IMG/VR virus record: IMGVR_UViG_3300004152_000002
Coordinates: 1-35,748 of that record
Reading direction: 5' to 3' (one strand)
Length of the DNA: 35,748 nt
DNA from: a virus
This document shows, piece after piece, positions 4,860 through 35,748 of the stretch (within the stretch, counting starts at the first letter, position 1; each line of letters opens with the position of its first letter). Under the pieces are notes generated by a model, which had not been told where the DNA came from, searched no databases, and saw only the letters and a list, made by a program, of their open reading frames with translations. A program made the position numbers and the translations under genes.

Positions 4860-5155
4860 TCCCCCCGGTCCAATTGAACGATCGGGTCAATGAAGTCCGA
4901 TGGAGTTCGCGCTCGTGTGGAAATCCAGGATGCACGGATCCGGAGTGCGTGTGCGGTCTGTGTGCACAACCGATCGGGACGCCCGAGGAAGTCCTCGCAC
5001 AGAACGGTCACGATCCGGAATGTTTTGGTTGCCCGATGTGCAACGATCAGGTCCCGATATGCCTATTTCGCGGCGTGGGAGCGGACGTGAGGGGCGCGGC
5101 GTTCCATGCGGTTTGTTTTGAGAAGTTGCTCGTCGTCGTGGAGCCTCGCAAATGA
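4856..5155 (+). CDS. Cys-rich probable zinc-binding protein
   Basis: 99 residues with a dense Cys pattern: CGNPGCTDPECVCGLCAQPIG, later CFGCPMC, and a final HAVCF. At least nine Cys plus His could bind two zinc ions, LIM- or treble-clef-like. Similar 'C.NP.C.dp.C.C..C..PI' proteins occur in phage early regions without assigned function. Joined to both neighbours by ATGA overlaps. Confidence 0.7.
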   Translation: MIPPVQLNDRVNEVRWSSRSCGNPGCTDPECVCGLCAQPIGTPEEVLAQNGHDPECFGCPMCNDQVPICLFRGVGADVRGAAFHAVCFEKLLVVVEPRK

Positions 5156-6315
5156 TCCAGATGCTATGCGCGCACGCCGGCGAGCTCCCCCTCGCGGATG
5201 AATCCGTGCAATGCGTCGTCACGTCCCCGCCTTATTGGGGACTGAGGAACTATGCGGGGAATCAGGAGCTCGTCTGGGATGCGGCGCCCGAGTGCGTTCA
5301 CGAGTGGATCGAACATCGGCCCGTCGGGGGAGGCAAACGGGGTGGGAAGACGCGATGGGCGCATGGAGGGCGAGGTCTCAGCGGACATGAATCCATTCTC
5401 ACAAATAACTGCGGGAAATGCGGCGCCTGGCGTGGGGCCTTCGGTCTGGAGCCCAGTGTTTTGCTCTATGTCGATCACTCGATCCAGATCCTCCGCGAGT
5501 TGCGGCGTGTCCTCCGTTCCGACGGCGTGCTTTTCTGGAATGTTGGCGATAGTTACGCGAGCGGGAAAGGGACGTGCTTTAACCCCGGAGGCGGATTCAA
5601 TTCTCTGGGCGGTCACGATCGCAAAAAAACCGGCGGCGCCTATCCCTTGAACCGCGGGAACGTGACGTCACTCCGGGCAGACGGGCTCAAACCGAAGGAC
5701 CTATGTCTGATTCCGGCGCGTGTGGCGCTCGCGGCGCAAGCGGACGGCTGGCACCTCCGGAGCATGATTGTATGGTCAAAATCGAACCCCATGCCGGAAA
5801 GCACGGACGATCGCCCGACGACTTCCCACGAGTATGTGATCATGCTCACGAAATCCGCGCGCTATTTCTGGGATGCGAAAGCATCGCGCGAGCGCGGAAC
5901 CTCGGGTCCATCCGATCTCCGCAAAATGCAGGAATCACTCCCCCGAATCGGCGGCAAAACGAAAGACTTGATCGCGCCTCTCGACAAGGCAAGCGCGGCG
6001 ACGAACATCGGCCAGAAGCGGAGTGTCGGCGAGGCGGGATGGAGACGGATGCGAACCGTCTGGGAAATCGCGACGACACCCTATCGCGGCGCGCATTTCG
6101 CGACGTTTCCGCCGGAGCTCCCCACGCGTTGCATTTTGGCGGCGACTCGGATCGGCGACGTCGTCCTCGATCCTTTCGCGGGCACAGGGACGACCGGGCG
6201 CGTCGCGATCGCCTTGCGCCGGCGTGTGATCCTGTGCGATCTCGCCTATTCCCAGGCCTATAAAGATCTCGCGGAGGACCGGACGAGCGGCGTCCAGTTG
6301 GAGGCGTTCGCGTGA
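5152..6315 (+). CDS. site-specific DNA methyltransferase, beta class (N6-adenine or N4-cytosine)
   Basis: 387 residues. The catalytic motif TSPPYWG is at residues 24-30 and the SAM-binding motif DPFAGTGTT at about 340-348, in the order (catalytic first, FxGxG last) that defines beta-class amino-methyltransferases. A CGKCGAW segment (about residue 95) is typical of phage members; the middle section should hold the target-recognition region. TSPPY fits both adenine and cytosine-N4 enzymes, so the base is undecided. No restriction enzyme is adjacent, which points to an orphan enzyme protecting phage DNA from host restriction or marking it. Confidence 0.9.
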   Translation: MIQMLCAHAGELPLADESVQCVVTSPPYWGLRNYAGNQELVWDAAPECVHEWIEHRPVGGGKRGGKTRWAHGGRGLSGHESILTNNCGKCGAWRGAFGLEPSVLLYVDHSIQILRELRRVLRSDGVLFWNVGDSYASGKGTCFNPGGGFNSLGGHDRKKTGGAYPLNRGNVTSLRADGLKPKDLCLIPARVALAAQADGWHLRSMIVWSKSNPMPESTDDRPTTSHEYVIMLTKSARYFWDAKASRERGTSGPSDLRKMQESLPRIGGKTKDLIAPLDKASAATNIGQKRSVGEAGWRRMRTVWEIATTPYRGAHFATFPPELPTRCILAATRIGDVVLDPFAGTGTTGRVAIALRRRVILCDLAYSQAYKDLAEDRTSGVQLEAFA

Positions 6316-10098: not shown

Positions 10099-10539
10099 AT
10101 GTTCCGGCGAATCGACAACGGAGATCAGGAACGTCGCTGGATCGAGGAAGCGCGCCTCGCTCGATTGAAGAACGTCAAAACGATCTCGGATGCGATCCAC
10201 TACGCGGCCGACTTCGGGATTCGTGTTCACGATTTCAAAAAGGTGTTTGCACTCAGGAGGGAGTTATGGGCAGAGAAACCGGGATCGAGTGGACAGATTC
10301 AACCTGGAATCCGATCCGCGGATGCTCCAGGGTTAGCGAAGGATGCCGCAATTGTTACGCCGAAAGCGTCGCGGCGCGATTCAGCGGCGCCGGCGCGCCC
10401 TATGAAGGGCTCGCGAAATTTGTCGTCGTCGCGGACGGCGTCGAAGCGCGATGGACGAACGAAGTCCGACTCATCGAAAAACACCTCGAGGATCCGATCA
10501 GGTGGAAGAAACCGGCGCGTATATTTGTTAACTCGATGA
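10099..10539 (+). CDS. hypothetical protein with long out-of-frame overlap
   Basis: The frame gives 146 residues; AGGAAAG precedes the ATG. The first 55 residues (RRWIEEARLARLKNVKTISDAIHYAADFGIRVHDFKKVFAL) look like a normal helical protein. From 10266 the frame is shared with the Gp37/Gp68-type gene, and the remaining 90 residues are Ser/Arg-rich, as expected of an antiphase shadow. Either the gene tolerates a 274-base overlap, or its original stop was lost by mutation near 10265 and only the N-terminal part matters. Confidence 0.45.
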   Translation: MFRRIDNGDQERRWIEEARLARLKNVKTISDAIHYAADFGIRVHDFKKVFALRRELWAEKPGSSGQIQPGIRSADAPGLAKDAAIVTPKASRRDSAAPARPMKGSRNLSSSRTASKRDGRTKSDSSKNTSRIRSGGRNRRVYLLTR

Positions 10540-11189
10540 GCGATCTCTTTCACCCTGGCGTGAAAGACGAATGGCTCGGGCGCATTTTCGACGTGATGGC
10601 GCGGGCGCCGCAACACATCTATCAAATCCTCACGAAGCGGCCGGAAAGAATGCTGGACGTGCTCTATGCGGCCGGCGATTCCGAGGTCGCGACGTCGTTC
10701 ACTCAGACTTACTCGCAACCCTGGCCCCCGCCTAATTGGTGGTTTGGCGTGAGTGTCGAGAATCAGGAAACGGCAAACGCGCGGATCCCTATCCTGGCGA
10801 AGTGTCCCGCGGCCGTGCGATTCGTCAGTTACGAACCGGCGATCGGTCCTCTCGATCTAGCGATCGCGGCGGGCGATCCCGTTTCGATGGCCGCGATCGA
10901 TTGGTTTATCTGTGGCGGCGAAAGCGGATCGCGAGCTCGTCCCATGCATCCGCAATGGGCTCGCGCGGTCCGCGATCTATGCGTCGATCTCGGAATCCCA
11001 TTCTTTTTCAAACAGTGGGGCGAGTGGGTCGATCCGTCTCAAAATCTCTGTGCATTGCACACGGCCGGCGTCCATGAATACGTCTCCGACGAAAAGACGT
11101 TGCTCGTCCGCGTCGGAAAAAAGGTCGCAGGCTCGAAACTCGACGGCGTCGAGTGGAAGGAATTCCCTCAAACGGAGGTGAAAGCATGA
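10266..11189 (+). CDS. DUF5131 / phage Gp37-Gp68 family protein
   Basis: 307 residues from ATG 10266 behind AGGAGGG (10256-10262). The N terminus, TGIEWTDSTWNPIRGCSRVSEGCRNCYAE, with Cys 20, 27 and 30, is the hallmark of the Gp37/Gp68 family; later blocks (IFVNSMSDLFHP, YQILTKRPERM, WFGVSVENQE, RFVSYEPAIGPL, WFICGGESG, PFFFKQWGEW) all fit. The three clustered Cys resemble a radical-SAM-type iron-sulfur site, and the fold is thought to be related, but the reaction is unknown. It is common in phages and mobile elements. An ATGA overlap links it to the next gene. Confidence 0.88.
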   Translation: MGRETGIEWTDSTWNPIRGCSRVSEGCRNCYAESVAARFSGAGAPYEGLAKFVVVADGVEARWTNEVRLIEKHLEDPIRWKKPARIFVNSMSDLFHPGVKDEWLGRIFDVMARAPQHIYQILTKRPERMLDVLYAAGDSEVATSFTQTYSQPWPPPNWWFGVSVENQETANARIPILAKCPAAVRFVSYEPAIGPLDLAIAAGDPVSMAAIDWFICGGESGSRARPMHPQWARAVRDLCVDLGIPFFFKQWGEWVDPSQNLCALHTAGVHEYVSDEKTLLVRVGKKVAGSKLDGVEWKEFPQTEVKA

Positions 11190-12364: not shown

Positions 12365-12898
12365 GTGCGGAAGAAAAAAAAGAGCGGGAAAAAACCGGGA
12401 TCGGTGAATGCGGCGTTCCTCGCGAATCTTTTCAGTCTGACGGAGAGTCGGATTCACCAGTTGGTGAAGCAAGGTCTCCCGAAAGAGTTGCGCGGGAAAT
12501 ACGATCTCCTAAAGTGCGTGCGTTGGTATGTGCGATTTCTTCAAACTGCGCTCGAGAAGAAAGCGATCCCCACGGGCGACGGAGGATTCGCCGGGGAACA
12601 CGCGGAACGAATTCGCCTTCTCCGTGCCGACGCGGATCTGAGAGAAATGGAATTGGCGAAAGAGCGCGGAATCCTGGTGACGGTCGCGGACGTGGAGTCG
12701 GCGTTGACGGATCTCGTTCTCACGACGAAGGCGCGGATCATGGCGATCCCTCCGCGGATGGCCGCGGAGCTCGTCGGGGAATCCTCGCGCGTGATGATTC
12801 AGGCGAAGCTCGAGCGTGCGTGCAAAGAGTCACTCGCGTATCTCGCGAAAGCGGTGAAGGATGCCGGAGACCCAGAGTCACCAAAGCGCGAAGGCTAA
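12365..12898 (+). CDS. terS: terminase small subunit (Nu1-like)
   Basis: 177 residues from GTG 12365. A very basic N terminus (RKKKKSGKK) and a winged-helix/HTH block (AAFLANLFSLTESRIHQLVKQGLPKELRGKYDLLKCVRWYV) are the DNA-binding domain, as in lambda Nu1; the remainder (LLRADADLREMELAKERGILVTVADVESAL) is the standard small-terminase helical segment that contacts the large subunit. It should recognise the packaging site, possibly in the palindrome-rich gap just upstream. The ribosome site is weak. Overlaps the large subunit gene by 38 bases. Confidence 0.85.
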   Translation: MRKKKKSGKKPGSVNAAFLANLFSLTESRIHQLVKQGLPKELRGKYDLLKCVRWYVRFLQTALEKKAIPTGDGGFAGEHAERIRLLRADADLREMELAKERGILVTVADVESALTDLVLTTKARIMAIPPRMAAELVGESSRVMIQAKLERACKESLAYLAKAVKDAGDPESPKREG

Positions 12899-14780
12899 TC
12901 TCGCCGTCGTCCTGGCGCGGGTTTACGGTCTGTATGATCCGCCTCCGGATATCACGATCTCCGAATGGGCGATCCGGAATCGCATTCTCCCGAAGGGCAC
13001 GACGTCGCGGCCGGGCCCGTTCAAGCCCGAACAATTCCAGATCGAAATGATGAACGTCGTCCTCGATCCCCTCGTTCACGAGATCGTCGTCCAGAAGAGT
13101 ACGCAAGTCGGCTATAGCGACGCGGTCCTAAACAACGTGTGCGGATATTTCATCGATGTCGATCCGAAACCGATCATGTTCGTCCAACCGACGATCGACA
13201 ACGCGAAGGACTACGGAAAAAAGCGGCTCAAACCCATGATCGACGCGTGTCCCGCATTGAACGCGAAGATCCGGCCAGCGTCGACACGGCGGGCCAGCAA
13301 CACGTTAGCCTTGAAGGAGTTCCCCGGCGGGTTCCTGAAATTGACGGGCGCAAACTCGGGCGCCGGTTTGCGCAGCGATCCGGTCCCGATCGTTCTCTTC
13401 GATGAGGTCGACGGTTATCCCCTGGACATAGACGGCGAGGGCGATCCTCTTGCGATCGGGACGCGGCGGACGGATGGATTCGCCGATTGGAAAATTATCA
13501 AGGGATCGACGCCGGCGAAACCGAAAGGGATCTCACCGATCGAGCGCGCGTTCCTCCGGTCGGACATGCGGCGCTTTTACGTTCCTTGTCCCTTTTGCCG
13601 ATTAAAGCAAGTCCTCTGGTGGAGGGATCCCGTCTCGAAAATATACCGCCTCTTCTACTCGTCCAACGCGGACGGACAGGTCGACCCCTCGAGCGTCGCG
13701 TTCCTCTGTGCCGGCTGCCAGGGGAAGATCCCCGAACGCTACAAACAACAGATGATCAACGGCGGGGAGTGGATCGCCGAATTTCCGGACCGGCCGATCG
13801 TGGGGTTCCATATCAACGCGCTCTATTCCCCTTGGCGCGAAAATTGGGGGGCGCTCGCGCAAGAGTGGCACGAAGCGAACAAAGAACAGAACCCCGAAAA
13901 ATTGAAAGCCTTTATCAACCTCCGCCTTGGCGAGACGTGGGAAGAACAGGGCGACGCGGTCGAGGCGGTCGCCTTGAAGGAACGCCTCAAACCATACGCG
14001 GCGGAAGTCCCCGACGGCGTCGGACTCCTCACGGCGTCGGTCGACGTCCAGGGCGATCGCCTGGAGTGCGTCGTCAAAGGATGGGGCGAAAAAGAGGAAT
14101 CCTGGCTGATCGCCTACCAACAGTTTTTCGGGGACCCCGGGCAAGAGGAAGTCTGGAACGAGCTCGACAAATTTCTTCTCGGAACGTGGGATCACGTCTC
14201 CGGCCAGAAGGTACGGATCACTTGCACCATGATCGACTCCGGCGGTCTCCACACGGACGAGGTATATCGATTCTGCAAAGCACGCCAACAGCGGCGCATT
14301 TTTTGCCTCAAGGGATCGAGCGAAGCGGGGAAAGAGATTCTCGGGAAATTCTCGACGAACAATCAATACAGGGTGAAACTCTGGATCATCGGGACGGACA
14401 CGGCGAAGGATCGCATTTTCGCGCGGCTCAAGATACCGGCGCCCGGGCCTGGATTCATGCACATCCCCGACTTCATCGAGGATGAATACCTCGCACAGTT
14501 GACGGCGGAGAAGGCGGTGCGTCGATATCGGCGCGGGAAGGGCACGGTCCGCGAATACGTGAAGACGCGCGCCAGGAATGAGGCGCTCGATCTGGAGGTC
14601 TATGCGCTCGCGGCGCTCTATGTCCTCGGACAGGCGACGATCCGCAAACTTGGAGAGTATGCAGCGGCGTTGCGGCTGCCTCCAGGGAATCCTCCAGGAG
14701 GATCCACAGGGGGAACGGGAGGAGCGGGGGGCATTCGAGGGCGGCCAGGAGGGGGTTCGTCGTGGGTCCAGGGTTGGTGA
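12861..14780 (+). CDS. terL: terminase large subunit, lambda gpA type
   Basis: 639 residues. ATPase domain: Walker A-like QKSTQVGYSDA (78-88), as in gpA enzymes that lack a classical P-loop, and Walker B IVLFDEVD (177-184). A zinc knuckle insertion has Cys 243/246 and 283/286 (CPFC, CAGC). The nuclease domain begins at about 390 with SVDVQGDR (Asp 395). C-terminal 35 residues are Gly/Pro-rich. It drives DNA packaging and cuts concatemers at cos or pac with the small subunit. The gpA type suggests, but does not prove, cohesive ends. One base separates its stop from the end of the convergent minus-strand gene. Confidence 0.95.
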   Translation: MPETQSHQSAKANLAVVLARVYGLYDPPPDITISEWAIRNRILPKGTTSRPGPFKPEQFQIEMMNVVLDPLVHEIVVQKSTQVGYSDAVLNNVCGYFIDVDPKPIMFVQPTIDNAKDYGKKRLKPMIDACPALNAKIRPASTRRASNTLALKEFPGGFLKLTGANSGAGLRSDPVPIVLFDEVDGYPLDIDGEGDPLAIGTRRTDGFADWKIIKGSTPAKPKGISPIERAFLRSDMRRFYVPCPFCRLKQVLWWRDPVSKIYRLFYSSNADGQVDPSSVAFLCAGCQGKIPERYKQQMINGGEWIAEFPDRPIVGFHINALYSPWRENWGALAQEWHEANKEQNPEKLKAFINLRLGETWEEQGDAVEAVALKERLKPYAAEVPDGVGLLTASVDVQGDRLECVVKGWGEKEESWLIAYQQFFGDPGQEEVWNELDKFLLGTWDHVSGQKVRITCTMIDSGGLHTDEVYRFCKARQQRRIFCLKGSSEAGKEILGKFSTNNQYRVKLWIIGTDTAKDRIFARLKIPAPGPGFMHIPDFIEDEYLAQLTAEKAVRRYRRGKGTVREYVKTRARNEALDLEVYALAALYVLGQATIRKLGEYAAALRLPPGNPPGGSTGGTGGAGGIRGRPGGGSSWVQGW

Positions 14781-14781
14781 T

Positions 14782-14961
14782 TCAGGCTTTCTTTTTCGTG
14801 GAGATGCCGCCGTTCGCCAGATATAACGTGATCGCCTCGCGGATCAGGAATCCAAACGAGCGTTCCTTTTCTTGCTTTAGGCGCTCCAGGGCTTTCCTCT
14901 GATTCGGAGTGATGAGGATATTCACGGCGATGGACGGGTTCTCGGATTTTGCTTTGGACAT
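14782..14961 (-). CDS. ribbon-helix-helix transcriptional regulator
   Basis: 59 residues on the minus strand. A short basic/polar arm, a beta strand (SIAVNILIT), helix A (PNQRKALERLKQEKE), a turn with RSFGFLI, and helix B (REAITLYLA), ending in a basic tail (STKKKA), which is the Arc/CopG-type ribbon-helix-helix plan. It would bind DNA as a dimer through the strand. No ribosome site is present; the predicted -10 box lies so close that the message would start at or next to the ATG. Convergent with the large terminase gene and divergent from 15086. Probably represses itself and the accessory genes downstream. Confidence 0.8.
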   Translation of the reverse strand: MSKAKSENPSIAVNILITPNQRKALERLKQEKERSFGFLIREAITLYLANGGISTKKKA

Positions 14962-14967
14962 GCCCTA

Positions 14968-14997
14968 TCTATAGACCTTTAAGTGCCTTTAAGTCAA
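14968..14997 (-). promoter_or_regulatory. promoter of the ribbon-helix-helix gene, probably leaderless
   Basis: Read on the minus strand: TTGACT (complement of 14992-14997) as -35, an 18-base spacer, and TATAGA (complement of 14968-14973) as -10. Transcription would start about seven bases on, at the ATG at 14961, giving a leaderless message like lambda cI from PRM. The spacer is filled by the two operator-like repeats. Confidence 0.6.
14975..14994. promoter_or_regulatory. tandem operator-like repeats
   Basis: ACCTTTAAGT (14975-14984) and GCCTTTAAGT (14985-14994) are two copies of CCTTTAAGT with a 10-bp period, placing them on the same face of the helix. They lie inside the promoter spacer. 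Ribbon-helix-helix dimers commonly bind cooperatively to short repeats at about 10-bp spacing, so this is the likely autoregulatory operator. A related octamer, CTTAAAGG, also appears at 12242 in the gap before the terminase genes. Confidence 0.6.
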
Positions 14998-15045
14998 CAG
15001 GAAAGCGAATTGGGAACTAGCAGTACTAAAGGACTATGGACAGCA

Positions 15046-15074
15046 CCTAAAGACGGCGAGAGACTGTCTTTAGG
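15046..15074 (+). promoter_or_regulatory. inverted repeat overlapping a ribosome binding site
   Basis: CCTAAAGAC (15046-15054) and GTCTTTAGG (15066-15074) are perfect 9-bp arms around 11 bases; a wider GACAG/CTGTC pair (15039-15043, 15064-15068) overlaps them. The right arm runs into TAGGAGG (15071-15077), the ribosome site of the gene at 15086, so RNA folding could hide it. It could also be a DNA operator: the arms resemble the TGTCTAAA repeats at 942-959. Confidence 0.55.
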
Positions 15075-15085
15075 AGGCGGTCCCC

Positions 15086-15283
15086 ATGACAAGGCTAGAA
15101 CACATGATCAGAGTCTCCGGGGCGCAGTGGGTCGGGATACAGGAAACGGACGGCGTTTCTCTTGTCCTCTTTCGCGATCCTGTGAGCGGAACGGGTTGTG
15201 CATTGAAGCAAGATGCGGTCACGCCGGAGGCGATCGACCGGAAACTCAAAGAGGCGCGCGAAAGGTTCGGGATAAGGCCATGA
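15086..15283 (+). CDS. small hypothetical protein
   Basis: 65 residues, led by TAGGAGG eight bases ahead of the ATG. Strand-rich N-terminal half (GAQWVGIQETDGVSLVLFRDPVSGTGCAL) and a helical end (EAIDRKLKEARERFG). No family recognised. First gene of the accessory block between terminase and portal; its translation may be gated by the inverted repeat. ATGA overlap with the next gene. Confidence 0.6.
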   Translation: MTRLEHMIRVSGAQWVGIQETDGVSLVLFRDPVSGTGCALKQDAVTPEAIDRKLKEARERFGIRP

Positions 15284-15873
15284 CGAACCGGATCAGAATT
15301 CTCGCGCTCGCACTCGCGGCGTTGACGGCTTTCGCGGCGCCGGCCGACTCGACGGCCAATCTTGAAACCGCGGACTTGCTCCGTATGCGCGGAATCCTCC
15401 GCGAATCGATCGCCGAAATGAATCACCGCGGGCGTGTCCCGATCGACGGTGTCGTCGGCGGAATGATAAATAACGCTTGGCAGACGGTCTCTCATCCGGC
15501 GGATCCCTCGCGGCTCGGTTGCGGTTGGCAATCAAATTTCCTCCTATCCAAACTCCAAGCGATCCCCGGTTGGACGTTTGAGTTGCGATATGAGTTCGGA
15601 TTTTCGTCCCCCATCTTTCTCCCGCATCAATGGATCACGGCTCACGGTCCCCGCGGGCGATCCGTGGGAAGGAATCACGGAGGCGAGACAATGACGAACG
15701 AACCTCTCGATCAGATCGTCGGGATGATCTTCTTTGTGTGTTCGTTCTGTTTTCTCGTTTACTTCGCGCGCGCCGCATGGCGTTCCTTCCGATCCCCCGA
15801 ATTCCATCGGGATATCGAAAAACTTCGCGAGAATCGCCGTCGCCGGCGCGACGCGAGAAGGCGGTCGCGATGA
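15280..15873 (+). CDS. secreted protein, probably frameshifted near its end and read into the next gene
   Basis: From ATG 15280 the frame runs 197 residues. Residues 1-20 are a clear signal peptide (RIRILALALAALTAFAAPA), so the mature part is exported. Residues 30-118 look natural (RGILRESIAEMNHRGRVPIDGVVGG ... SNFLLSKLQAIPGWTFELRYEFGF). The stretch around residues 119-137 (HGPRGRSVGRNHGGE) looks wrong, while the +1 frame from about 15655 gives DPWEGITEARQ and a TGA that overlaps a well-placed ATG at 15691. A one-base slip or mutation near the C/G-run at about 15648-15656 would explain this. Function unknown. Confidence 0.5.
   Translation: MTNRIRILALALAALTAFAAPADSTANLETADLLRMRGILRESIAEMNHRGRVPIDGVVGGMINNAWQTVSHPADPSRLGCGWQSNFLLSKLQAIPGWTFELRYEFGFSSPIFLPHQWITAHGPRGRSVGRNHGGETMTNEPLDQIVGMIFFVCSFCFLVYFARAAWRSFRSPEFHRDIEKLRENRRRRRDARRRSR
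15691..15873 (+). CDS. small single-pass membrane protein, probable separate gene
   Basis: 60 residues from ATG 15691, with GGAGGCGAGACA immediately upstream giving a good ribosome site. One membrane helix (VGMIFFVCSFCFLVYFARAAW), then a strongly basic cytoplasmic tail (LRENRRRRRDARRR), so N-out/C-in topology. It is in frame with the secreted protein, but start signal and topology suggest an independent product. No family recognised; a superinfection-exclusion or spanin-like role would be a guess. Confidence 0.5.
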   Translation: MTNEPLDQIVGMIFFVCSFCFLVYFARAAWRSFRSPEFHRDIEKLRENRRRRRDARRRSR

Positions 15874-16181
15874 GCTCCTCGTTCAAACACACGATCGTGC
15901 GTCTCACCCCAGAGGGGGAAGACTATGCGAACAAGGTCCGCGGCAGCGATCCTGGACAGGTTCCGGCATGGCAGGCGCAATGCTCCGGGAGCACGCGAGA
16001 TCGTTTTTGCGGGGAGCGGATCCGTTGGCTCTGTGGCTGGCAATACGTCACAGACGCCGCGGGGAGAGTCTCGACAGCGGGAAGAAAGTATTGCGACGCG
16101 CACGCCCTAAAGTTTTGCAAATCGCATCGTCTCGCGATCCCCGACGAGCTACGCGCGCCGGCGGAACAGGAGAGGCCATGA
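15870..16181 (+). CDS. small Cys-rich hypothetical protein
   Basis: 103 residues starting at an ATGA overlap. Six Cys and several His: QAQCSGSTRDRFCGERIRWLCGW, then KYCDAHALKFCKSH. Spacing suits a structural zinc site. No family recognised. Continues the coupled chain of small genes in the accessory block. Confidence 0.6.
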   Translation: MSSSFKHTIVRLTPEGEDYANKVRGSDPGQVPAWQAQCSGSTRDRFCGERIRWLCGWQYVTDAAGRVSTAGRKYCDAHALKFCKSHRLAIPDELRAPAEQERP

Positions 16182-16429
16182 GAAAAATCAGACTTGGGCC
16201 TGTTGCTGGCATGTATCACAGGGAACTGCAGGAAGCGAAAGAAACGATCCGGGAGCTCCAATTCAAAATCGAAGCCTATGGAGTGCTCGCGGAATTCGCG
16301 ATCGCTAATCTCCCTCCAGAGGCGAGGACGATGTTCGGCAATGGTCTCTTCCGACTTGCGGCGGGACACACACGAGGAGAACACCCTTTGCAGTGGTCTT
16401 TTCAGGATAGGACGGTCAAAAAACTATGA
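16178..16429 (+). CDS. small hypothetical protein with coiled-coil segment
   Basis: 83 residues, ATGA overlap with the previous gene and AGGAGAGG ahead. The segment HRELQEAKETIRELQFKIEAYGVLAEFA is a probable coiled coil; the rest is short and polar. No family recognised. Confidence 0.55.
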   Translation: MRKIRLGPVAGMYHRELQEAKETIRELQFKIEAYGVLAEFAIANLPPEARTMFGNGLFRLAAGHTRGEHPLQWSFQDRTVKKL

Positions 16430-16638
16430 AATCCTTCGCGGTCGAGGCGTATTTCCCGGAAATCAAGCCGGCGCATTGCGCGTATCAGTCCGTAGTCGTC
16501 AGGGTGAGCGGAATGAGCGTTGCGGCGCGCGTCGCGATCGAGGAGATTCGGCGTCGCCCGGAAATGCGCGGAAAGCACGTCACGGTCGCCAAGTTGACGA
16601 TCTCCGAGGTCCGCGGTGTTGCTTCCCCGGAACAGTAG
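16426..16638 (+). CDS. small hypothetical protein
   Basis: 70 residues, again joined by an ATGA overlap. An alpha/beta miniprotein: AYQSVVVRVSG (strand), MSVAARVAIEEIRRRPEMRG (helix), KHVTVAKLTISEV (strand). The layout resembles a small ferredoxin-like or DNA-contacting fold, but no family is recognised. Confidence 0.55.
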   Translation: MKSFAVEAYFPEIKPAHCAYQSVVVRVSGMSVAARVAIEEIRRRPEMRGKHVTVAKLTISEVRGVASPEQ

Positions 16639-16696
16639 TACCAAAGTAATCTCGCGGTCCGGAGCGGTCGCTATAAAATTGAATCAGGAGGATGCT

Positions 16697-17311
16697 ATGA
16701 GACGAATTCTATCCGCCCTCGGGTTGATCGGACTTCTCGCCGCCGGCGCATTCGCGCAAACGAAGACGGCCGACTCGACCGTATTCGGCCTTCACCTCGG
16801 AGAAAGACTATCTCTCCCCGAATGCGTGCACTTGAAAAAGAGCACGCTCTATCTGGAAAATGACGGGGTCGTCTGTTTCGAGAGGTCGATCGCCGCGTGG
16901 GAAAAAAGCAAATGGAGCTCCCCGGTGTTCGATGAGACGGTGACGATCCTCTTTCCCTTCGGGCGGAAGCCGGCGCTCGCCTCCAAGTATAAAATCGTCG
17001 GGCAGGTGGTGGAGGGAAATCTGGAGTCGATCGGATTCAACACCTCGGGGATTACGGCTCAGGAAGAAGTCCTCGAGGGATTGCGCGCAAAGTACGGCGA
17101 TCCGACGAAGACGGTCAACGAAACAAAAGAGAATGCGGTCGGCGCGCGATTCGATTCTCAGGTCGCGGTCTGGGAGTTCGATAATCTGACGGTGATTTTT
17201 CAGGGAACTACGGATCGGATCGACAGCGGACTCGTGAACATTGACACGAGGAAGGGCGCCAAGTTCCGGGCTCGACTGCTAGGCAATTCTCAAACCGGTC
17301 CGAAACTTTAG
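16697..17311 (+). CDS. exported periplasmic-type protein of unknown function
   Basis: 204 residues from ATG 16697 behind AGGAGG. Signal peptide at 1-20 (ILSALGLIGLLAAGAFA) with a likely cut after AFA. The mature part opens with STVFGLHLGERLSLPEC and later has LEGLRAKYGDPT, phrases typical of chromosomal periplasmic proteins in Gram-negative bacteria ('FG...G..l.LPeC', 'L..KYG.P'). Cys 43 and 60 could form a disulfide. It is not a recognised virion protein; as a phage-borne exported host-type protein it is a lysogenic-conversion candidate. A hairpin follows at 17377. Confidence 0.65.
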   Translation: MRRILSALGLIGLLAAGAFAQTKTADSTVFGLHLGERLSLPECVHLKKSTLYLENDGVVCFERSIAAWEKSKWSSPVFDETVTILFPFGRKPALASKYKIVGQVVEGNLESIGFNTSGITAQEEVLEGLRAKYGDPTKTVNETKENAVGARFDSQVAVWEFDNLTVIFQGTTDRIDSGLVNIDTRKGAKFRARLLGNSQTGPKL

Positions 17312-17376: not shown

Positions 17377-17409
17377 ACGGCGCCCCGGTCCCCCGACTCT
17401 TGGCGCCGT
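17377..17409 (+). terminator. hairpin between accessory block and structural genes
   Basis: ACGGCGCC (17377-17384) and GGCGCCGT (17402-17409) form a perfect 8-bp stem with a 17-base loop. Only a short mixed CTCTTG run follows, so it is at best a weak intrinsic terminator. The 170-base gap (17312-17482) around it also holds ATGGT/ACCAT arms and an AT-rich TATAGGCATTCTATAGTACT patch that might carry a promoter for the structural operon. Confidence 0.35.
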
Positions 17410-17482
17410 CCTCTTGTCACATCACGCAATATAGGCATTCTATAGTACTGGAACGCACGGTCCTGCCCGTATCTTCGGGACA

Positions 17483-18097
17483 GTGGCACCGATCATTCCA
17501 GGGACGGTCCCCAAAAACTTCCCCGCGGGAACGACTGTCAAGTTCTCGCGGACGTTGGGCGATTATCTTCCCTCGGACGGTTGGGCCTATACGATCTATC
17601 TGAACGGTCTCACCCAAAAATTCAACAAGGCCGCGAGCGTCGACGACGAAGGCGTGTTCCAAATCGTGTTCGATCCCACGGACACGGCGAGTCTTATCCC
17701 CGGTCCCTATCGATATGCGGAACGCCTCACCAATGCGACAACCGGCGAGACTTACGATCTCCACGGCGACGAGCTCGTGATCGTGATCGAACCGAACGTC
17801 GCATCGGCGGCCGCGGGAGTCTTCAACACATGGGAAGAAAGAACCCTGGCGATCGTCGAGGCGGCGATCTCCGGCCGGCTGACTGCGGATCTCCAGGCCT
17901 ACCAGATCGCGGGAAGATCCGTCTCCAAGATACCGATCCAGGAATTGCGCACGATCCGCGGGGAGTTACGCGCCGCGATGTGGCGTCAGAACAACCCGGG
18001 GAAATTGGGCGTCCCCTTTAGGGTCGGATTCCCGCCAGAGCAAGAGAACGAGGCACTCCCGCCGACATGGGTCGACGTCACGGGGCTCGACCGATGA
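17483..18097 (+). CDS. gpW-like head-completion protein with N-terminal Ig-like domain
   Basis: 204 residues from GTG 17483. The C-terminal 90 residues are helical, with LQAYQIAGRSVSKIPIQELRTIRGELRAAM, resembling the gpW / DUF6148-type 'Y.i.gR...~i...EL..~r..L' pattern, and the gene sits just before the portal, where lambda W is. The N-terminal half is beta-rich (FPAGTTVKFSRTLGDYLPSDGWAYTIYL ... DEGVFQIVFDPT ... LHGDELVIVIEPN) and reads as an Ig-like or bacterial surface-type domain not present in lambda W. The two-domain architecture is unusual. ATGA overlap with the portal. Confidence 0.6.
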   Translation: MAPIIPGTVPKNFPAGTTVKFSRTLGDYLPSDGWAYTIYLNGLTQKFNKAASVDDEGVFQIVFDPTDTASLIPGPYRYAERLTNATTGETYDLHGDELVIVIEPNVASAAAGVFNTWEERTLAIVEAAISGRLTADLQAYQIAGRSVSKIPIQELRTIRGELRAAMWRQNNPGKLGVPFRVGFPPEQENEALPPTWVDVTGLDR

Positions 18098-32424: not shown

Positions 32425-33218
32425 GTTTCGATTCGCTAGAACAATCCGGGCATGCCGGGGCACCCTACGAGCTCTTTCTTTTCGAGAGTACCGGGATTTC
32501 GTTCGCGTTGACGAGCGCGGAGGAAACGATCACCTATCTCGAGCAGGTCTATACGCCGGCGACGATCACGCGCGACGAATCGGAACAATCGAACGAGGTC
32601 GTCTCCGGGCAAATGAAGATCTACGTCCCGAAGGATCATCCCCTGGCCCAGATGTGCGTCCCCTATCTTCCTTCGGCGCCGATCGCGGTCCGCCTCTTTG
32701 GTTCGCACTACGGCGATTCGGAAACCGTCGTCCTATTCGTCGGCGTCCTGGCGTCCGCGCGGTTCACGGATCAATGTGAGCTCACATGCAACTCCGCGGC
32801 GTATTACCTCCAGAGAAAGATCCCCCAGCAGTTGTACCAGGCGCCGTGTTCTCACATTTTCGGGGACGCCGGATGCGGCGCAAGTCTCGCGGATCATAGT
32901 TTCGAGGGCACGATTACGGCGATCGACGCGACGGGGACGATCCTCACGATTCCCGCGTTCGCCTCTCTGCCCGATCCATTGAAGGCCGGATATCTCAAAG
33001 TTGGCGACGAATACCGCATGATCGTCGCGCAAACTGGAGAGACGGTCACATTGATCTCCGCGATTCCAGGCCTCGCGGCGCCGGCGGCATGCATCGCAAC
33101 GGCCGGCTGCAATCTCGATTTTTCGTCGTGCGCCCATTACGGGCGGACGATCAGTTTTCTCGGGTTTGATCTGATTCCAGCGATCAACCCGTTCGATGGG
33201 AGCGCGAGCGTCGGTTGA
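32421..33218 (+). CDS. tail tip hub protein of the DUF2163/BR0599, gpL-like group
   Basis: 265 residues. N-terminal YELFLFESTGISFALTSAEETITYLEQVYTPATITR and VSGQMKIYVPKDHPLA are DUF2163-type; the C-terminal half has the BR0599-like Cys set and GRTISFLGFDLIPAINPF. Four Cys, 143 and 152 (C-x8-C) and 230 and 237 (C-x6-C), repeat the spacing I recall for the four Cys that hold the iron-sulfur cluster in lambda gpL. It would bridge the distal tail and the J-like protein. The end overlaps the next gene by 23 bases. Confidence 0.78.
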   Translation: MSFDSLEQSGHAGAPYELFLFESTGISFALTSAEETITYLEQVYTPATITRDESEQSNEVVSGQMKIYVPKDHPLAQMCVPYLPSAPIAVRLFGSHYGDSETVVLFVGVLASARFTDQCELTCNSAAYYLQRKIPQQLYQAPCSHIFGDAGCGASLADHSFEGTITAIDATGTILTIPAFASLPDPLKAGYLKVGDEYRMIVAQTGETVTLISAIPGLAAPAACIATAGCNLDFSSCAHYGRTISFLGFDLIPAINPFDGSASVG

Positions 33219-35748
33219 CGCAGAAAGAGGTGTCGTCTTCTTCTGGCTTCTCTTGCTTCTATTCGTCGCGACGACCGTCGTCGGCGCTTTGTTGGCCCCT
33301 CATCCCCAAGGGCCGCAACCGTCGGCGCTCGGGGATTTCTCTGTCCCGACGGCGCAAGAGGGGCGCGCGATCCCGGTCGTTTTCGGGACGGTCAAGATCC
33401 AGGGCGGAAACACGGTATGGTGGGGCGATCTTAAGTCGAAAGCGGTGAGAGTCGGCGGCGGGATCCTCCAGTTTGGCCAGTCGACGATCACGGGATACAA
33501 GTACTTCCTCGGCTGCCAGATGATGCTCTGTCACGGGGCGATCGACGCGCTCCTCTCGATCGAGTTCGACAAAAAGGATCTCCCATACACGTCGACGACG
33601 ATCACGAACGGAAATGGAAGCGAAAACTATCTCAAACTCACGGCAACCGGCGACAAATTGTTCGGCGGAACGACCGCGGGCGGCGCCGGAGGCGTCTCCG
33701 GACAGATCAATTTTTATCGTGGAGTTCAAACGCAGCAACCGGACGATTACCTCGGCGAAAAACAGGGGCGCATCGTCCTGGATCAATCGGGAATCGGATA
33801 CGAGTTTTCCGGCGTAGGCAACGGAACGATCTCGAGCGAATCCGGCGGATCCGGCTCCCTCGACGAGACGATCACGATCACAGCCTACGGGATCGACGGA
33901 AACAACACGCATGGCACCTATCAGCACATGGAGTTCCATGTCGTCGGATCGGTCTCCGGCGAACAGATCAACGCGGCGCCGAATAGCGACGGCTCCCGCG
34001 GGTGTTGGGCCGATCAAGCGTTCTCCTGTCCGATCGTAAACTTCACGATCAACCGGGGATCGATCCAGTTCGCCAATGGCGACAAGTTTGTGATTTCCAC
34101 CTCGCACTCGAAAATCGCGCCGGCTTACCGCGGGAAATGCTACGCCGTTTTTTGTCAGACGTACATGGGAACGTCGAACTATCTCAAGCCTCCCGCGTTC
34201 ATCGTTCGCCGGTGTCCGGATCCTCTGGGCCAGGGCGCCGGCGTCGCGAATATCGGCGGCGACGCGAACGCGGCTTTCGCGGTCTATGAGGCGCTCACAG
34301 ATCCGAACTGGGGTCTCGGGCTCCCCTACACGACGATCGACGCGGCGAGTTTCATCGCGGCCGGCGAGACGCTCGCGACGGAGGGTCTGGGAATCTCGAT
34401 GCAGTTCGACACGCAAGGGAGCGCGGATCAGTTGATCGGCGAGATCCTCCGCCACATCGACGGTTTGCTCTATACCGATCCCGCGACGGGATTATGGACA
34501 ATCATCCTCGCGCGCGGCGGATACGATGCCTCAACCCTTCCGGTTCTCACGATCGACAATATCCTGGACACGCCCGATTTTTCGCGGGGCTCCTGGAGCG
34601 AAACGACGAATCACGTCGCGATCAAGTACAGCACGCGCGCCGGCGACTTCGCCGACGCGATCATAAATGCTTACGATCCCGCGAACATTCGCGTTACGGG
34701 AGAGGTACGTCCCCAGACGATCGAGTTCAAAGGGATCTCGAATTCCGCGGCGGCCGGTCTCATCGCGATCCGTGTTCTGAAAACTCTCACCTATCCCCTC
34801 GCCAAAGTGAAGATCGTCACGAATCGAACCGCGTGGAAGTGGCGCCCAGGCGGATTGTTCCGTTGGACGTGGGCGCCTCTCCAGATCTCAGATGTGGTTT
34901 ATCGGATCACACGGATCGGATACGGATCGCTCCTCGATGGGAAGATCACGATCGACGCGGTCGAGGATATCTTCGGGATCAATTCGGTCGCCTTCGTCGG
35001 ACCTCCGGCGTCCGGCTGGACCGATCCTCTAGCGGCGCCGGCGGCGCCGGATTATCAAATGGCGATCGAGAGTCCCTATGCGTTCTCGATTTCGGCCGAT
35101 GAGCGGATCACGGTCGGTTGCGTCCGCGGCGACGCGATCAGCAAGAGTTTCGAGGTGTTCGCGGACGAGGCGGGCGGGACGGCATATTCGAGCTACGGGG
35201 AGATCGAGGGTTTCATGCCTTCCGGTCTCCTCTCCGCCGATTATCCCGTGAACACGGCAGCGACGGACGGGACAGGTTTCGTTTTGTCGGCGACCGGCGC
35301 GCGAGATCTCGACGCGTTGATCTCGACCGATGCGAGCGGTCTCGCGAACGGAAAGAACCTCCTCATGTTCGTCGATACGGGAGAGCTCTGTTCGTGGCAA
35401 ACGGTGACGCCGAATAGTGACGGAACGATCTCGATCTCCGGGATCATGCGCGGCGTTTTGGATACGGTCCCCGCGGATCATCCCTCGGGGACGCGCGTCG
35501 TTTTTTTCGAGGCGGGATTCGATTTCCTAAAACCAGCGACAATCCCGACGCCTGGACCGACGGGAGCAACCGGACCGACGGGATCGACCGGAGCAACCGG
35601 AGCGGCGGGATCCACGGGAGCAACCGGAGCGGCGGGATCCACGGGAGCAACCGGAGCAACGGGCGCGGCCGGCGCCGCGGGGAGCAAATGGTACGAAGGC
35701 GCGGGAGCTCCCTCGACGACGCACAGTGACGGCGATTTTTATCTCAAC
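33196..35748 (+). CDS. J-like tail tip / host attachment protein with collagen-like tail (partial)
   Basis: 851 codons are visible from ATG 33196; the frame is open at the window end. A hydrophobic segment near the N terminus (VVFFWLLLLLFVATTVVGALL) is followed by LGDFSVPTAQEGRAIPVVFGTVKIQGGNTVWWGDL, the standard start of J-like central tip proteins. Then MLCHGAIDALLSIEFD, NPNWGLGLPYTTID-like (DPNWGLGLPYTTID), IGEILRHIDGLLYTDPATGLWTI, and the fibronectin-poor beta domains. Residues from about 787 are 14 Gly-X-Y triplets, then SKWYEGAGAPSTTHSDGDFYLN, a common fibre-tip module. It should govern host recognition. The true end lies outside the window. Confidence 0.82.
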   Translation, partial: MGARASVDAERGVVFFWLLLLLFVATTVVGALLAPHPQGPQPSALGDFSVPTAQEGRAIPVVFGTVKIQGGNTVWWGDLKSKAVRVGGGILQFGQSTITGYKYFLGCQMMLCHGAIDALLSIEFDKKDLPYTSTTITNGNGSENYLKLTATGDKLFGGTTAGGAGGVSGQINFYRGVQTQQPDDYLGEKQGRIVLDQSGIGYEFSGVGNGTISSESGGSGSLDETITITAYGIDGNNTHGTYQHMEFHVVGSVSGEQINAAPNSDGSRGCWADQAFSCPIVNFTINRGSIQFANGDKFVISTSHSKIAPAYRGKCYAVFCQTYMGTSNYLKPPAFIVRRCPDPLGQGAGVANIGGDANAAFAVYEALTDPNWGLGLPYTTIDAASFIAAGETLATEGLGISMQFDTQGSADQLIGEILRHIDGLLYTDPATGLWTIILARGGYDASTLPVLTIDNILDTPDFSRGSWSETTNHVAIKYSTRAGDFADAIINAYDPANIRVTGEVRPQTIEFKGISNSAAAGLIAIRVLKTLTYPLAKVKIVTNRTAWKWRPGGLFRWTWAPLQISDVVYRITRIGYGSLLDGKITIDAVEDIFGINSVAFVGPPASGWTDPLAAPAAPDYQMAIESPYAFSISADERITVGCVRGDAISKSFEVFADEAGGTAYSSYGEIEGFMPSGLLSADYPVNTAATDGTGFVLSATGARDLDALISTDASGLANGKNLLMFVDTGELCSWQTVTPNSDGTISISGIMRGVLDTVPADHPSGTRVVFFEAGFDFLKPATIPTPGPTGATGPTGSTGATGAAGSTGATGAAGSTGATGATGAAGAAGSKWYEGAGAPSTTHSDGDFYLN
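35554..35682 (+). repeat. collagen-like Gly-X-Y coding repeat
   Basis: About 14 uninterrupted Gly-X-Y triplets (GPT, GAT, GST, GAA) coded by near-identical GGAGCAACC / GGAGCGGCG / GGATCCACG nonamers, with a longer direct repeat around 35600-35655. It would form a trimeric collagen-like stalk. Such repeats change copy number easily. Confidence 0.85.

Follow-up and report, generated by a model that had tools for sequence, protein, structure and literature searches.

Genes between the terminase and the head operon

The stretch of DNA analysed here (the window, 35,748 bases long) is an IMG/VR virus record, IMGVR_UViG_3300004152_000002, from an uncultivated soil phage, and the locus under study is the set of small genes that lie in it between terL, the large terminase gene, and the gene for the head-tail joining (HTJ) protein. 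As judged by comparison with related phages, this interval comprises a phage-specific operon core, an exchange slot for exported proteins and a conserved closing hairpin, and its accessory (moron-type) status is well supported on these grounds. The genes of the interval and its two borders are the following (aa, amino acids):

12861 to 14780, plus strand: terL, large terminase, left border of the slot (Pfam GpA_ATPase, E 2e-62; GpA_nuclease, E 8e-96; relatives)
14782 to 14961, minus strand: RHH, 59-aa ribbon-helix-helix (RHH) regulator, convergent with terL and divergent from the small operon
15086 to 15283, plus strand: g65, first gene of the coupled operon (homologues in 17 loci; alignment)
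15280 to 15873, plus strand: SP197, signal peptide and Cys/His domain, then a small membrane protein in the same frame
15870 to 16181, plus strand: zn103, cysteine-rich 103-aa protein (68% identical homologue in L024/L028 only)
16178 to 16429, plus strand: g83, 83-aa protein, ATGA-coupled on both sides and placed by position and overlaps alone
16426 to 16638, plus strand: g70, small protein with a predicted beta-alpha-beta fold (22 loci; predicted local distance difference test score, pLDDT, of the model 85.7)
16697 to 17311, plus strand: SP204, predicted exported cargo protein (homologues in the slot of L033, L050 and L052, and on host chromosomes)
17483 to 18097, plus strand: HTJ protein, right border (PHROG 5774, E 8e-23), with the portal gene next

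The five plus-strand genes g65, SP197, zn103, g83 and g70 are read from the sequence as a chain of ATGA overlaps. An earlier, sequence-only reading of the window had listed the convergent terL end, the minus-strand RHH gene, the small genes, the portal side and signal-peptide starts at 15280 and 16697, all of which are indeed in the sequence. The RHH assignment is based on length, pattern and conserved position, the curated profile cut-off not being reached (Pfam RHH_1, E 0.006, 16.9 bits, gathering cut-off 20.5); seven other loci have a homologue at the corresponding position, likewise on the minus strand.

RHH, the membrane half of SP197, g65, zn103, g70 and SP204 have homologues at 35-91% identity in the same interval of independent contigs, which is beyond what chance reading frames would give, g83 being the sole interval gene for which no homologue was found; no functional match was obtained for any interval protein in Pfam, PHROGs, NCBIfam or PADLOC (for g65, none at all in the first three), and sequence searches of the PDB gave no match. 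The most widely conserved gene of the operon is g70, whose invariant residues are kept across 16 sequences, as are those of g65 across 11. Common small folds resemble the g70 model no more than moderately (ribosomal L20/LX-like at Z ~7; PurS, T7 Gp2 and the epsilon subunit of RNA polymerase at Z 4-5), and no function is assignable from them.

An insertion between genes that adjoin in other phages

Related loci were collected through terL (25 loci) and through a profile of the HTJ protein (36 loci), some contigs being found by both routes. Of the 34 loci with both borders, L051, L055 and L056, which are the three most distant relatives and lack the interval genes, have terL and the HTJ gene 54, 59 and 134 bp apart, whereas the distance is 413-2703 bp in the remaining ones. 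Among distant cultured phages, the portal gene follows terL nearly directly in Pyei1 and with one small gene between them in Lelie. On this comparison, the interval is an insertion between genes that adjoin in related phages, as is characteristic of morons. The presence of the genes in some relatives and their absence from others would also fit their being dispensable for phage growth. The sequence-only reading had named as one refutation the retention of these genes by all related phages as virion components; the terL-portal interval of the relatives shows that they are not so kept.

Of the 41 loci searched, 22 have g70, 17 have g65, 12 have a second RHH-like gene and 8 have the minus-strand RHH gene. 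The one-helix membrane protein, encoded in the second half of the frame at 15280, is frequent as well, its count being merged in the clustering with those of SP197 and of NlpC-type proteins. What recurs in relatives is a small operon of g65, the membrane protein and g70. At the place that RHH occupies in other phages, L006 carries a Gp49-like toxin gene (L006:8285-8662, minus strand), and the minus-strand place after terL may also be an exchange slot. At the right border, the HTJ protein of L052, L054 and L057-L062 has a mid-protein insert of roughly 80 residues.

Turnover of the cargo gene

At least seven protein families are represented, across the loci compared, by the last gene before the hairpin, which is SP204 in the window; five of these families recur, each with an N-terminal signal or anchor:

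SP204 family: window, L033, L050 and L052
SP130 family, BamE-like: eight loci
SP231 family: seven loci, one of them a duplicate contig
SP222 family: four loci
SP174 family: four loci
Single cases: L027 (zinc ribbon plus helix) and L062

Two cargo genes are present in L013 and L040 and none in eleven loci; a hydrophobic N-terminal export or anchor segment is found in nearly all cargo proteins. Between families, blastp detects little beyond the signal peptides and a C-terminal tail common to SP222 and SP231, the chief exception being the SP222 relative of L048, in which a stretch of 37 residues resembles SP231. This tail, like ESVADAARRLKAEKAAR, was seen in the otherwise unlike SP222 and SP231 proteins of L005, L006, L010, L013 and L024.

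For four of the five recurrent families, the distribution does not follow that of the head genes. On a head-gene tree, the number of changes required by SP204 (4 rows), SP130 (5), SP222 (4) and SP174 (4) equals the number of rows in each case; these families are scattered like shuffled labels, and well-supported branches force nearly all of the changes (3-5 per family). For SP231 (5 rows), three changes are forced. The nearest sister, L024, has head proteins 85% identical to those of the window and yet carries SP231 cargo instead of SP204. Between these two, identity is 86% in the 250 nt upstream, 65% in the downstream spacer and 81% in the HTJ gene, while the cargo genes align at 51% nucleotide identity; homology of the two cargo genes was rejected, as this value equals that of shuffled sequences with the same aligner. 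A similar pattern is seen for L033 versus L004 (upstream 91%, cargo 35%, HTJ 95%). By these comparisons, the slot, which has a conserved gene on either side, shows the high gene turnover of a variable hotspot.

Domain exchange is also apparent among relatives of the gene at 15280. The signal peptide and Cys/His domain of SP197 span 15280 to about 15656, and this first half of the protein is 67% identical to an intact homologue, L081, which a Terriglobia genome carries in a rearranged prophage remnant. The L081 protein ends in ...HQWITAYGPGGRVIQIDPWDGVTE; the window lacks 14 nt by comparison, at about 15656, after which the SP197 frame leaves the domain and enters the gene of the membrane protein. 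That gene starts with an ATG of its own (15691), has a GGAGG-like site, ends at 15873 and occurs as a separate small gene in relatives. The window copy of SP197 has therefore probably been damaged, or turned into a fusion, through an apparent frame-shifting deletion. The earlier mention of two signal-peptide proteins, right as to both starts, consequently overstates the working cargo. L081 runs on through HQWITAYGPGGRVIQIDPWDG, with a Cys-His-Asp pattern recalling papain-like or transglutaminase-like enzymes; this conserved Cys...His...DPW pattern at most hints at a papain-like enzyme, and no Pfam match to NlpC/P60, papain-like or any other enzymes was found for window SP197 or L081. The N-terminal anchor of the L081 protein is shared with the NlpC/P60-like protein of L017 at 80-90% DNA identity, the remainder being different; on sequence comparison, this pair shows for a second time that domains are exchanged while the export segment before them stays constant. 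Viral contigs gave no match when searched with SP204 or the first half of SP197 as single queries, nor with the SP197 pair; their homologues were obtained only via profiles, head-gene relatives and host genomes.

Lineage and host

Family searches give the window a lambda-type terminase, a portal, a protease-capsid fusion, a tyrosine integrase and a small helix-turn-helix (HTH) protein. Its closest terL in the searched phage collection is ~40% identical. A relative with a terL 84% identical is a prophage in a metagenome-assembled genome of Terriglobia (Acidobacteriota); this prophage (G001 contig 49, L091-L027-L092) splits a comM/yifB-like gene, the two parts of which can be read on both sides. 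The lineage is therefore taken to be temperate and to infect Terriglobia, and the temperate life style is also backed by the window's own integrase and HTH regulator. At its ends, the G001 prophage has a large serine recombinase on one side and a tyrosine integrase on the other.

A large tail gene and an endolysin, both expected from the G001 prophage, were not found near the window ends (33218-35748 and 1-84), so that the record is probably incomplete there. Elsewhere in the window, the early region encodes a DNA N6/N4 methylase (5152-6315) and a DUF5131/GP88-like protein (10266-11189). In another genome, G203 contig 23 (L088-L089) holds a rearranged prophage remnant with RHH, SP197-like, second RHH-like and g65 genes, which adjoin reversed terS and tape-measure genes.

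Possible origin of the cargo and predicted fold of SP204

Core and cargo differ in their occurrence in host genomes. While g70 is found in 2/250 Terriglobia genomes, one of these cases being the prophage itself, relatives of the SP231 family are present in 182/250. SP204 homologues are rarer, with 7/299 genomes at E 0.001, three of them strong; in two genomes, the neighbours of the homologue are chromosomal housekeeping genes, such as a prfB-like one, and the 20 kb around it contain no match to phage genes. Given these figures, the operon core looks phage-specific, whereas the cargo is apparently host-derived at least in part (SP231, SP204), the direction of transfer between host and phage being one that we infer.

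The AlphaFold2 model of SP204, built from four sequences, has a mean pLDDT of 73.5, with higher values for most of residues 79-197. Its core resembles the alpha-beta fold of PsbP/Mog1/DcrB-like proteins, at weak PDB scores (Z 4.8-6.2; best 6.2, <8), and a weak Foldseek match among viral proteins is a lipoprotein of Erwinia phage Midgardsormr38 (E 3.3e-5). The matches of this model are too weak to carry a function over to SP204.

Candidate regulatory elements

The following elements lie around the genes of the interval:

14968 to 14997, minus strand: predicted sigma-70 promoter of RHH (-35 TTGACT at 14992-14997, 18-bp spacer, -10 TATAGA at 14968-14973)
14976 to 15074: candidate operator of four CTTTARG repeats (14977, 14987, 15046 on the minus strand, 15068), including CCTAAAGAC...GTCTTTAGG
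16639 to 16690, plus strand: 5' element of the cargo slot (AGTAAT..., inverted repeat AGCGGTCGCT at 16663-16672, TATAAAAT at 16672-16679, AGGAGG)
17377 to 17409, plus strand: terminator-like hairpin closing the slot, 9 bp, with compensatory changes
17430 to 17444: inverted repeat TATAGGCATTCTATA (TATAG-N5-CTATA), about 40 nt before the head operon

The match to the RHH promoter is weak in the window alone (P 0.11); in 7/8 RHH loci, a promoter with TTGACA/TTGACC and a TATAAA-like -10 is found at the same position and at constant distance. The CTTTARG motif occurs ten times in the 35.7-kb window, four of these in the 125-bp spacer between RHH and g65, where they may serve as an operator. With the conserved promoter and this concentration of repeats, autoregulation by RHH is plausible. 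In one large subgroup including the window, the 5' element with its inverted repeat and TATAAAAT/CTCTAAAAT box is kept before several cargo families, and it may be a promoter. A generic promoter and terminator scan of the interval did no better than on shuffles.

The hairpin that the sequence-only reading had placed at 17377 proved to be real. Its stability in the window corresponds to z -3.96 (z -3.5 to -5.2 for single sequences), and in relatives five of its nine pairs show compensatory changes, with 98.6% of cells paired (0/500 shuffles). T-tracts follow it in L008 and L020. Lying right after the slot, this conserved hairpin gives the locus a predicted terminator of its own, as is expected of a moron. 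Further downstream, TATAG-N5-CTATA is present in the window and in L024, the copy at 17430-17444 being the only exact one in the window, and CTGAGNAAGNCTC or a near version occupies the equivalent position, 40-60 bases before the head operon, in most scanned relatives (L004, L013, L018, L027 and others), each having its version at this one place; this inverted repeat is possibly a control site for late genes.

A proposed accessory cargo locus and its alternatives

Taken as a whole, we regard the interval, with a probability of roughly two in three, as an accessory cargo locus, carried by a temperate phage of Terriglobia and made of an operon core and an exchange slot, with a likely mechanism that involves RHH and the exported proteins. 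In this mechanism, the RHH protein would repress its own promoter, that of the operon, or both, thereby setting a low level of expression separate from that of the late genes, and the hairpin would separate the operon transcript from the head operon. The site of action of the exported cargo would be the lysogen's periplasm or inner membrane, and its likeliest role superinfection exclusion or else another envelope change. Superinfection exclusion is preferred because the fast replacement of cargo by unrelated cargo in similar phages fits selection to differ from competing phages, which the rapid turnover would reflect; stress or adhesion roles of the cargo are less favoured. Expression in the lysogen, control by RHH and action of the products on the envelope are each presumed in this proposal. 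The accessory status that the sequence-only reading had proposed is supported by the absence of the genes in the most distant relatives, the cargo turnover in sisters, the closing hairpin and the host homologues of SP204 and SP231, and the comparison suggests that phages trade envelope-altering cargo among themselves and with their hosts.

Several observations weigh against this proposal. The same reading had described the block as self-regulated from its own promoter, and while the RHH promoter of 7/8 loci and the CTTTARG copies speak for this, RHH is missing from most relatives and no strong or convincing plus-strand sigma-70 promoter was found in the interval of the window. Where the cargo gene overlaps g70 by ATGA, as it does in the L004/L013/L033 subgroup, there is no gap for a separate cargo promoter; the plus-strand genes are oriented like the late genes; and the T-tract of the window hairpin is weak. 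In addition, no cargo family matches a known superinfection-exclusion family or a PADLOC family (the PADLOC search covered ten proteins and described systems only).

A tentative reading, which we consider possible but clearly less probable, is that of an exchange cassette with a constant frame. A fixed regulatory element, an often retained signal or anchor and a fixed terminator would enclose mature exported domains that are swapped by recombination and selected to differ, and that would make up a superinfection-exclusion repertoire of Terriglobia phages. It is prompted by the anchor that L081 and L017 share before diverging, and by the C-terminal tail common to SP222 and SP231.

The main rival to the accessory cargo locus, although an unlikely one, is that the interval is a late-expressed accessory module for the envelope or lysis, reached by read-through from terL, in which NlpC/P60 or papain-like, membrane and exported proteins would weaken the envelope for lysis or release. 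The orientation of the plus-strand genes would suit such a module, as would the coupling of cargo to g70 in some relatives, the fact that L017, L018, L019 and L042 encode an exported NlpC/P60-like protein at the first slot, and a similarity to the murein endopeptidase PRK10838. However, no profile shows the cargo as muralytic, the hydrolase or the cargo is absent in many relatives, and the hairpin and inverted repeat set the block apart from the head operon. Moreover, the related prophage has a GH19-type endolysin elsewhere, beside homologues of the window genes at 84-332 and 313-927; for this reason, the idea that the block is the main lysis cassette was dropped. Family searches of the interval found no lysis family (endolysin, holin or spanin).

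Two further explanations are improbable. RHH proteins are common antitoxins, and a toxin-antitoxin or plasmid-maintenance-like module around RHH would also fit the Gp49-like toxin gene at the corresponding minus-strand place of L006; but no toxin family was found beside the window RHH in Pfam, PHROG, NCBIfam or PADLOC, and RHH stands alone, divergent from the operon and with its own conserved promoter. Equally hard to credit is neutral mosaic debris, i.e., short genes that come and go in a permissive gap and serve no function: the damage to SP197 and the lack of relatives of g83 would be expected of it, but the invariant residues of g70 and g65 and the compensatory changes that hold the hairpin would not, and the export of nearly every cargo protein is not expected of random capture. 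Lastly, helper genes for morphogenesis or packaging, which the location between terL and the HTJ gene would suggest, are already mostly refuted by their absence in distant relatives, by the unrelated cargo of sisters with nearly the same head genes and by the export signals on most cargo.

Acidobacteriota are abundant in soil. If the slot of the accessory cargo locus works as proposed, it would offer a ready-made set of envelope-acting phage proteins for these hosts, and, as sister phages differ in little else nearby, single-gene swaps would make the function and turnover of the cargo directly testable.

Comparison with known systems

The locus resembles morons and prophage accessory loci (Juhala et al., 2000, via PMC7067206) in having extra genes between genes that are adjacent in relatives, a terminator-like hairpin that closes it, an antisense regulator in some members, host homologues and products that are likely to alter the host; prophage accessory loci can indeed be read antisense to lytic genes (PMC7067206). 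It differs from them in consisting of a constant small operon plus an exchange slot, rather than of one gene with a promoter and a terminator. With the antiviral hotspots of P2 and P4 (Rousset et al., 2022, PMC9122126), it shares the arrangement of a high-turnover locus of 1-5 kb between conserved phage genes, but its cargo is a single small exported protein and no defence system recognised by PADLOC, and its position between terL and the HTJ gene, its constant regulatory flanks and its Acidobacteriota hosts are also different. Pseudomonas phage ZRG1 (OQ504961), a GpA-type phage, has seven small genes in the same interval between terL and the head-tail adaptor gene; however, its terL is only 40% identical, and its cargo, of which an Nmad5 DNA-modification protein is part, has nothing annotated as exported.

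As for the cargo itself, Ltp-type superinfection-exclusion lipoproteins (PMC3952083) are likewise small exported phage proteins, the likeness being a functional analogy only, since there is no family match and SP204 has no lipobox on reading. PsbP/Mog1/DcrB-like periplasmic proteins and the Midgardsormr38 lipoprotein share the predicted alpha-beta core of SP204, but as weak structural matches with no sequence relation. Overall, the locus fits the ideas of the moron and of the small hotspot, and what sets it apart is its position, its constant regulatory casing and its nearly always single exported cargo.

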